Shown: positions 37,746 through 40,835 of the stretch, piece after piece | How the letters are laid out: every line of letters starts with the position of its first letter | Numbering within the stretch: the stretch's first letter is position 1 | The notes under the pieces: generated by a model | The model's database searches: none | What the model was told of the DNA's origin: nothing | Seen by the model: the letters and a program-made list of their open reading frames with translations, nothing else | NCBI GenBank assembly: GCA_025355805.1 | Contig: JANXYY010000006.1 | Location: 1 to 43,621, forward strand | Length of the DNA stretch: 43,621 nucleotides | Reading direction: 5' to 3' | From: Actinomycetes bacterium | GTDB taxonomy: Bacteria; Actinomycetota; Actinomycetes; Nanopelagicales; Nanopelagicaceae | Translations under genes and position numbers: made by a program

Positions 37746-39092
37746 ATGTCCGCAGGCCACCGCACTCAGCGACGTCTGCAGCGGGGCGGGGATTACTCCG
37801 CCTTGGCTGTTGGCCTTGGGCTTGGCATCACGATTGCAATTCAAATTTCAACAACCACCAGCCACGATTTAAAATCCACGGCTAGCCTCATCACCAGCGC
37901 GAGTCGACTAGCGGCACTTAGCGGCACTTATTTCGCCCTCGTCGGGTTGTTGATGGTCGCTCGAATTCCATGGGTGGAAGGCTCGGTCGGCCATGATCGC
38001 CTTGTTACTTGGCATCGAAAACTTGGTCCTTGGTCGCTTTACCTCATCGGCTTGCACGTTGTACTGGTTGTTCTCGGGTATTCGATGAACGACAAACGTT
38101 TCTATCCACGGGAACTTTGGATTTTGATCACCACTTATCCCTGGATGTTGCCCGCAACCGCCGGCTTCGTTCTGTTGGTCATGGCTGGCGTTACTTCTTA
38201 TAAGAAGGCACGCGCACATATGAGTTACGAATCATGGTGGGTGATTCATCTTTACACTTACCTAGCAGTTGCGCTCTCTTTCATGCACCAAATCCTTACG
38301 GGCGTGATGTTTTTCGGGCATCCATTGAATAAGGCTTGGTGGATTGGCCTGTACACGTTCGTAGGCGCATCGATGGTTGCTTGGCGGATTTTCCTTCCAC
38401 TTTTTCGGTCAATTCGCCATCAACTTGTAGTTGATCGCGTTGTCGTCGAGGGTCCAGGTGTCGTCAGCATTCACATCAAAGGTCGCAAACTAGACAAAAT
38501 CGGAGCACAAGGTGGCCAGTTTTTTGGTTGGCGTTTCTTAACCCGAAACTTCTGGTATCAATCTCACCCCTACTCACTGTCCGCTGCTCCTCACGACAAA
38601 CTGATGCGCATAACCGTTAAAGATCTTGGTGATCATTCTCGATCATTAGCCAATCTGAAGCGAGGAACTCGAGTTTTGGCGGAAGGCCCGTACGGAATTT
38701 TCACGGCTAATCGAGCGGTTAACAAAAATGTTTTACTAGTAGGTGGTGGAGTTGGTATCACTCCGTTAAGGGCGCTATTAGAAGAAGTTCCGCCTGGCAG
38801 TTCCGTCGATGTAATTTATCGAGCTGCAAAGGTTGAAGATTTGGTACTGAAGAAGGAACTCGATTACTTAGCGGAGCAAACCGGCGCTCGGATTCACTAC
38901 ATGGTGGGTCCTCGTGATCAGTTCCCATTAACTCCAAATCACTTAGTGAAAATTATTCCGAATGTGGCCAAGTGCGATGTGTTCGTCTGCGGCCCTGAGG
39001 CTCTCGTTCACCGTATTCGACACTCCGTTGAAGCACTTGGAGTGCCAAGTAGCAGATTCCACGACGAAGCATTTGCTTTCCACTCGATCTAG
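37746..39092 (+). CDS. Ferric-reductase-like transmembrane flavocytochrome
   Basis: The 448-residue protein joins a six-helix ferric-reductase membrane domain to a cytoplasmic ferredoxin-reductase module. His90, His104, His168 and His181 are placed to bind two haems across the membrane. HPYSLS (274-279) binds FAD, GGGVGITP (333-340) binds NAD(P)H, and VFVCGPEAL lies near the C-terminus. It should carry electrons from cytoplasmic NAD(P)H outward. The next two genes encode an exported FMN-binding protein and its flavinyltransferase, so that protein is the probable acceptor rather than iron itself. Confidence 0.92.
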   Translation: MSAGHRTQRRLQRGGDYSALAVGLGLGITIAIQISTTTSHDLKSTASLITSASRLAALSGTYFALVGLLMVARIPWVEGSVGHDRLVTWHRKLGPWSLYLIGLHVVLVVLGYSMNDKRFYPRELWILITTYPWMLPATAGFVLLVMAGVTSYKKARAHMSYESWWVIHLYTYLAVALSFMHQILTGVMFFGHPLNKAWWIGLYTFVGASMVAWRIFLPLFRSIRHQLVVDRVVVEGPGVVSIHIKGRKLDKIGAQGGQFFGWRFLTRNFWYQSHPYSLSAAPHDKLMRITVKDLGDHSRSLANLKRGTRVLAEGPYGIFTANRAVNKNVLLVGGGVGITPLRALLEEVPPGSSVDVIYRAAKVEDLVLKKELDYLAEQTGARIHYMVGPRDQFPLTPNHLVKIIPNVAKCDVFVCGPEALVHRIRHSVEALGVPSSRFHDEAFAFHSI

Positions 39093-39106
39093 TCAGGAGT
39101 AGAGAA

Positions 39107-39574
39107 ATGAAGCGCGCCTTACTCATTGGTGGCGGCACCCTCGCTGGTGTTGCTGCCGTGCTCTCATACTCACCAATAAATTTTGGAAATTCGTCGCAAC
39201 CTCCGCTTACGGCCCCAAGTTTGGGCAGCGGAAATCCTGTTGCGACGACTCCTCCGACACAATTGCCAGGGAACACGGCAACTCCAACGGCGAGTAAGAC
39301 TGCGATGGGGAGCAGTTACTCCGCGTGTGGCTATGGAAATGTCCAAGTTCAGATCACGGTCGCGAACGGGGTCGTCACAAAAGTTGGCGCCATTTCTCTG
39401 CCAAATGCTGATCCGAGGTCGCAAGATATTAATCGCCAGGCAAAACCGTGGCTCGTGCAACAGACGTTGGCCGCAAAAAACAAGGCAGGCATTGCCGGTG
39501 TCGGGGGCGCAACCTGTACGTCGGGCGCGTGGGCTCGTTCGCTGCAATCTGCATTAACTGCCGCTGGAATCTAA
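39107..39574 (+). CDS. Exported FMN-binding domain protein
   Basis: A 155-residue protein with an N-terminal membrane anchor or signal segment (4-20), a Pro/Thr-rich linker (about 31-67) and an FMN_bind domain (70-153). The flavinylation motif, usually SGATxTS, reads GGATCTS with the acceptor Thr136. Cys74 and Cys137 could form a disulfide outside the cell, Cys137 standing where a tyrosine is common. It probably takes electrons from the flavocytochrome upstream. Its TAA overlaps the ATG of apbE (TAATG). Confidence 0.88.
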   Translation: MKRALLIGGGTLAGVAAVLSYSPINFGNSSQPPLTAPSLGSGNPVATTPPTQLPGNTATPTASKTAMGSSYSACGYGNVQVQITVANGVVTKVGAISLPNADPRSQDINRQAKPWLVQQTLAAKNKAGIAGVGGATCTSGAWARSLQSALTAAGI

Positions 39575-40329
39575 TGTTTCGGTTGGTTCACCCGGAAGAA
39601 GTCTGGGGCACCGTGGTGGTGATTGATTTACGTTCTGCAATACATAGTGAACTCGTTCTCGAGTCGGTGCGCGATGAAATCGTCGTCTACCTGCATGAGG
39701 TAGATCGGCTCTTTTCAACATATAAACCAGAGAGCGAAATCAGCGCGCTTCGCACGGGCCAGTTAGCGATACGCGATGCCTCGCTTGTTGTTCAAGAGAT
39801 CTGGCGACTCTGTATGGAGGCTCGGGAGTACACCGGAGGGGCCTTCGATGCCTGGGCTGCGCGGGGTGGTTTTGATCCAAGTGGCTATGTGAAGGGGTGG
39901 GCCGCCGATCGAAGCCTGGATTTGGCCCGCAAAGCTGGCATTGAACATGTGCAGATCAACGCTGGCGGCGATCTCTCATTGCTTGGTGGTTCGGCACAAA
40001 ATGAGCCGTGGAAGATCGGCATTCGCCATCCGGATGATGAGCAGGCGATCGCTCAAGTCGTCACCATTAACGATGGCGCAATCGCAACGAGTGGTACGTA
40101 TGAGCGCGGTGCTCATATCATCGATCCAGCTACCGATTTGCCTGCGCTCGGTGCCCGGTCAGCAACCGTTGTGGGTCCTGATGGAGGCGTCGCAGATGCG
40201 CTCGCGACTGCGCTCGTTGTCGCCGGTCGAGACGGTGCCCACTGGTTCGTCGAGTTGAGCGATTATTCTGCGTGGGTCGTTGATCGCCACGGTGACCAAA
40301 CCTGGGCCATTGGTCCCGCCTTTAGTTAG
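39574..40329 (+). CDS. apbE: FAD:protein FMN transferase (ApbE)
   Basis: This 251-residue enzyme transfers FMN from FAD to a threonine of target proteins. FSTYKPESEIS (47-57), GGAFDAWA (88-95), DPSGYVKGWA (101-110) and NAGGDL (129-134) are family signatures, and AIATSGTYERG holds metal/FAD-site residues. No lipoprotein signal is present at this start, so it may act in the cytoplasm or use an undetected export path. The frame opens at 39448, but the ATG at 39574 overlaps the stop of its likely substrate gene and fits the family. Confidence 0.93.
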   Translation: MFRLVHPEEVWGTVVVIDLRSAIHSELVLESVRDEIVVYLHEVDRLFSTYKPESEISALRTGQLAIRDASLVVQEIWRLCMEAREYTGGAFDAWAARGGFDPSGYVKGWAADRSLDLARKAGIEHVQINAGGDLSLLGGSAQNEPWKIGIRHPDDEQAIAQVVTINDGAIATSGTYERGAHIIDPATDLPALGARSATVVGPDGGVADALATALVVAGRDGAHWFVELSDYSAWVVDRHGDQTWAIGPAFS

Positions 40330-40355: not shown

Positions 40356-40835
40356 GTGACCACGGAAAATCTAAAAAGCGCAGAGCTTCTTGCCGACGAG
40401 TTGCTCACAACTCTGAACCAGTTGTCTAACGACGACGCCATCGACCTTGGGCTGCTGACTCTAAAATTTGCCCGGGAGCGGCAACTGCCGATCGCATTCG
40501 AGGTCCACCGATCAGGAAGAATTTTGTTCCGAGCGGCCCTGGCTGGATCGACCCCGGATAACGAACGCTGGTTGGCGGGCAAAGCGCGGGTGGTGGCGAA
40601 CTTTCATCATTCAACTTTGTATGAGCGAGTAAGACACGAAGAGAACGGTAGTGATTTTTACACCGCCACCGGGTTATCCGCTGAGTTGTTCGCGGCACAT
40701 GGTGGAGGAGTTCCACTTGCGATTCGAGGAACCGGGGTAATTGGCGCGCTCATCGTAAGCGGTTTACCCCAAGTAGAGGACCATGCGTTTGCAATCGAAA
40801 TGGTATCCAGATACCTCGCGGGCGAGAGGGCTTAG
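40356..40835 (+). CDS. UPF0303/HbpS-like heme-binding domain protein
   Basis: A 159-residue single-domain protein of the UPF0303 (DUF336-like) group. Helical N-terminus, then IAFEVHRSGRILFRAALAGS, WLAGKARVVANFHHSTL and GGGVPLAIRGTGVIGALIVSGL are family blocks. Some relatives bind or degrade heme (HbpS, GlcG), but this is not shown for this group as a whole. It begins 26 bp after apbE and ends three bases before the kinase gene, so it may be read through from either side. Confidence 0.85.
   Translation: MTTENLKSAELLADELLTTLNQLSNDDAIDLGLLTLKFARERQLPIAFEVHRSGRILFRAALAGSTPDNERWLAGKARVVANFHHSTLYERVRHEENGSDFYTATGLSAELFAAHGGGVPLAIRGTGVIGALIVSGLPQVEDHAFAIEMVSRYLAGERA

Follow-up and report, generated by a model that had tools for sequence, protein, structure and literature searches.

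The window (the whole stretch of DNA analysed, 43,621 nucleotides) contains three consecutive genes encoding a ferric-reductase-like flavocytochrome, an electron carrier of the FMN_bind family, and an ApbE FAD:protein FMN transferase. The genes, together with three codons of the carrier that bear on its flavin site, are as follows:

37746–39092, + strand: flavocytochrome, predicted bis-haem and ferric-reductase-like (MsrQ-like), with a C-terminal FAD/NAD(P)H module (448 residues; Pfam PF01794, PF08022, and PF00175)
39107–39574, + strand: FMN_bind electron carrier (155 residues; Pfam PF04205)
39326–39328, + strand: Cys74 codon of the carrier (TGT), equivalent to Thr12 of 8P2A
39512–39514, + strand: Thr136 codon of the carrier (ACC), the predicted FMN acceptor within GGAT according to the motif literature
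39515–39517, + strand: Cys137 codon of the carrier (TGT), equivalent to Tyr73 of 8P2A
39574–40329, + strand: ApbE FAD:protein FMN transferase (251 residues; Pfam PF02424)

The reading frames are present, and the families that the initial annotation had proposed for them are those assigned by Pfam. PF01794 is found in the flavocytochrome with 55 bits (cut-off 28), with the PF04205 and PF02424 genes adjacent to it; the carrier matches PF04205 with 23.4 bits (cut-off 22) and ApbE matches PF02424 with 142.4 bits. The carrier and apbE genes overlap in the sequence TAATG, such that the FMN_bind stop codon TAA (39572–39574) shares a base with the ApbE start codon ATG (39574–39576). The host genome is a 1.83 Mb assembly of 185 contigs, estimated to be 87% complete, in which the flavocytochrome of the trio is the single PF01794 protein.

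Six hydrophobic segments are present in the flavocytochrome, whose residues His90, His104, His168, and His181 are kept in all aligned homologues (60–64 rows). The four conserved histidines and the six hydrophobic segments together are consistent with the binding of two haems, as in MsrQ-like cluster proteins. Sequence relatives in the PDB are 8qt6/8qq7 and NOX2.

This gene content is that of the “MsrQ-like” flavinylation clusters, defined by a PF01794 protein with an NAD-binding domain, an FMN_bind protein, and apbE, of which 1797 have been described (Meheust et al., 2021; PMC8238504). Such clusters are broadly conserved in Actinobacteria, where the PF01794 protein is usually fused to the NAD-binding domain, and a VIT1-type transporter is linked to some of the systems (PMC8238504). 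The trio has the same PF01794 membrane protein with a fused NAD-binding domain, the same two partners, and an actinobacterial host; it differs in that its carrier has two private cysteines and in that no VIT1 gene lies alongside, the VIT1-type transporter of the host genome being encoded on another contig. The same three genes occur in the same order in four assemblies (L033, L034, L040, and L042), with 71–73% identity for the flavocytochrome and 68–71% for ApbE. These four are actinobacterial, several bear lake names, and they represent related freshwater actinobacteria. More distant trios are found in L037, L038, L039, and L041. A scan of viral contigs for relatives returned two distant matches only. 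The recurrence of the trio, in order, in independent genomes implies that the arrangement reflects more than chance.

Upstream of the trio, a divergent MFS gene is common to those relatives with a sufficiently long flank (L033, L034, and L040). The genes downstream differ among relatives, which indicates that the unit consists of the three genes alone. In the window, an HbpS/GlcG-like (PF03928) gene at 40356–40835 starts 26 bases past apbE, with PfkB kinase and aldose epimerase genes close behind; these were considered as parts of the system and rejected, since apbE is followed by different genes in close relatives.

The trio is thus real, well identified, and of a described kind, and the proposal in the initial annotation of a three-gene system for flavin-based outward electron transfer is supported, the arrangement being a published system type (PMC8238504). 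We consider the trio very probably to be an ordinary actinobacterial MsrQ-like flavinylation cluster for outward electron transfer. A different role for the flavocytochrome, either in oxygen reduction like that of the NADPH oxidases or in methionine sulfoxide repair, with the FMN carrier as an accessory, is suggested by the distant relationship of the family to NOX and MsrQ, and the reduced flavin of the homologue SaFMN3 does react with oxygen (PMC10339131). However, no MsrP-like gene is present among the classified genes adjoining the trio, and the constant partners of the flavocytochrome across genomes are FMN_bind and ApbE, such that we regard this alternative as very improbable.

The carrier comprises an N-terminal MKR followed by a hydrophobic segment, a low-complexity linker, and a single FMN_bind domain (about residues 64–155). 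Its predicted model (pLDDT 94.4) superimposes on the crystal structure of domain 2 of SaFMN3 from Streptomyces azureus (8P2A) with an rmsd of 1.0 Å and TM scores of 0.89/0.95, revealing a matching FMN_bind fold. In 8P2A, Thr72 carries FMN covalently, the flavin is stacked against Tyr14, and Tyr73 makes a side-chain contact with FMN and also binds it via the backbone (PMC10339131). The carrier has the same fold, acceptor threonine, and stacking tyrosine as SaFMN3 domain 2, but consists of one such domain where SaFMN3 has three, has Cys137 in place of Tyr73 and Cys74 in place of Thr12, and has alanine and glycine at the motif positions where SaFMN3 has aspartate and serine.

The published motif for FMN attachment is Dxx[S/T]GA[S/T], with FMN on the last residue (PMC8238504, and also a review). 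Residues 130–139 of the carrier read AGVGGATCTS, in which the GAT core and the acceptor are present; Ala130 and Gly133 stand in place of the motif aspartate and first serine, a departure seen in many relatives too. Thr136 is the last residue of the motif and is equivalent to Thr72 of 8P2A, and is for both reasons the expected FMN acceptor, in agreement with the earlier prediction; the corresponding column is threonine or serine in all 173 homologous domains aligned. Thr138 was considered as an alternative site and rejected, because the published motif and 8P2A both place FMN at the Thr136 equivalent. The looseness of the motif (Ala130 for aspartate, Gly133 for serine) might be held against assignment to the MsrQ-like clusters, but the aspartate is present in only 57/173 domains, and an aspartate-to-alanine change in the motif of another protein had only a minor effect (as reported in a review). 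Glycine occupies the Gly133 position in 55/173 domains, which led us to reject GGAT as a new motif. The suggestion that GGATCTS is special is therefore retained for its cysteine, which is private to this carrier (1/173), but not for the substitution of glycine for serine, which is common.

The carrier contains exactly two cysteines, Cys74 and Cys137, which the initial annotation had proposed to form a disulfide-linked or redox-switched pair next to the flavin. Conservation was examined in the alignment of 173 distinct homologous domains, drawn from the family, the class, and the phylum. At column 137, cysteine is found in this carrier alone, and 147 of the 173 domains have tyrosine; at column 74, cysteine is again confined to this carrier, the residue being missing or other than cysteine in the remaining 172 domains. 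None of these 172 thus holds either cysteine. The four closest relatives, 65–66% identical over the domain, have glycine at the 74 site and tyrosine at the 137 site. The absence of the cysteines from the closest relatives means that the idea of a conserved switch fails. In one domain only (L102; G322:C1:55900-56450) is there another cysteine near position 74 (GDTCTAGKYG), and that domain lacks a partner at the site of residue 137.

With respect to structure, Cys137 replaces Tyr73 of 8P2A, the side chain of which contacts FMN, and Cys74 sits two residues before Tyr76, the equivalent of the flavin-stacking Tyr14. Since this places both sites next to the flavin of 8P2A, the model suggests that the two sulfurs may lie close together and close to the flavin. 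A disulfide or a reactive thiol pair formed by Cys74 and Cys137 could then either tether the loop that holds Tyr76 to the beginning of the helix carrying FMN or trade electrons with the flavin, as flavin-disulfide enzymes do, making the carrier a lineage-specific hybrid. Cysteine is very rare in the family: the 173 domains contain 6 among a total of 15,387 residues, and 2 of the 6 are in this carrier. This rarity is in keeping with such a pairing, as is the joint gain of both residues, which is the appearance expected of a disulfide. The Poisson chance of two cysteines in one domain is 2.8 × 10^-4, but becomes about 0.05 after counting 173 domains, a marginal value from a post hoc test. Moreover, the cysteines occur in no relative, the nearest included, and the cluster encodes no thiol partner, and we therefore judge a disulfide or reactive thiol pair to be unlikely. 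That such a pair beside covalent FMN is functional, as a hybrid thiol-flavin shuttle or a redox-gated carrier that is private and was gained once in the genus, we consider improbable. A literature search for thiol-flavin FMN_bind carriers found nothing relevant.

Probably, the two cysteines are neutral substitutions or errors of the draft assembly, an explanation that is limited to these two residues and can hold alongside the assignment of the trio to the MsrQ-like clusters. Each TGT codon is one base removed from a codon for a residue that relatives have at the site (GGT for glycine, TAT for tyrosine), the pair is known from one genome of the genus, and that genome has the fragmentation and incompleteness given above. 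The Tyr73Ala variant of SaFMN3 still contains covalent FMN (PMC10339131), showing that the site tolerates change and implying that the Cys137 substitution need not disturb flavin attachment. Against this explanation, it requires that two independent changes to a very rare residue, both beside the flavin, coincide. The cysteine pair remains a peculiarity of a single assembled genome; its residues appear private to this lineage, whether through neutral drift or as a local disulfide, and lie outside the shared mechanism of the system.

The ApbE of the trio has 4xgw, 3pnd, and 6nxi as relatives in the PDB, with which its TSG...HIIDP...ADALATA motifs align. The alignment with solved FMN transferases extends across the catalytic half, where the TSG, HIIDP, and ADALATA segments match 4xgw and 6nxi. 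Inspection of the N terminus revealed no recognisable signal peptide in ApbE of the trio or of its closest relatives (L004–L034), yet its carrier substrate is hydrophobic at the N terminus and presumably exported. The N-terminal segment of the carrier, MKRALLIGGGTLAGVAAVLSYSP, is by inspection hydrophobic, and its type is that seen in the rest of its clade; many related carriers start with KR, KK, or RR ahead of the hydrophobic segment. A signal-less ApbE that modifies an exported carrier would be a loose end in the assignment of the trio to the MsrQ-like clusters. It is plausible, judging from these N termini, that flavinylation of the carrier precedes its export; the export may follow the Tat route, as suggested by the KR/RR start of carriers and by the presence of an encoded TatC in the host genome. 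However, the carrier starts with KK in several of the closest relatives, an argument against a classical twin-arginine signal.

One ApbE, that of the trio, was found in the host genome, a count that is a lower bound given the incompleteness of the assembly. A second FMN_bind protein is encoded on another contig of the same genome (L001, 24–650); it has the motif GVSGATYTS and a long linker rich in Ala, Pro, Thr, and Lys. Its 2.1 kb stretch carries no ApbE, and the protein would depend on the ApbE of the trio, as the only one found. Adjacent pairs of FMN_bind genes or domains in L009 and L030 suggest carrier duplication in some relatives.

In the mechanism that we propose for an MsrQ-like cluster of this kind, electrons from cytosolic NAD(P)H would pass to FAD on the flavocytochrome and cross the membrane via the two haems. 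The carrier, N-terminally anchored or exported, would accept them on FMN, attached by ApbE and predicted to be phosphoester-bound to Thr136. The reduced carrier would then donate to an extracytosolic acceptor, for which ferric iron destined for assimilation is the likeliest candidate. The terminal acceptor is absent from the cluster, as the initial annotation had also noted; because no acceptor is encoded nearby, we infer iron from the published VIT1 association and from the ancestry of the family. According to literature descriptions, the flavin-based extracellular electron transfer system of Listeria (PplA/FmnB) likewise employs a flavinylated exported carrier as an outward shuttle in a Gram-positive organism. 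On the same descriptive basis, the trio differs from it in that its electron source is an NAD(P)H flavocytochrome of the ferric-reductase-like type and its ApbE is without a recognisable signal peptide.

The arrangement of the trio is known, and the two cysteines predicted to lie near the flavin, shared by no examined relative, are the one unusual detail, which we regard as mildly notable. Were the cysteine pair functional, it would represent a thiol switch evolving beside covalently bound FMN, of which we found no description in the literature searched. To the described class of outward electron-transfer systems, the trio adds one freshwater-type actinobacterium.
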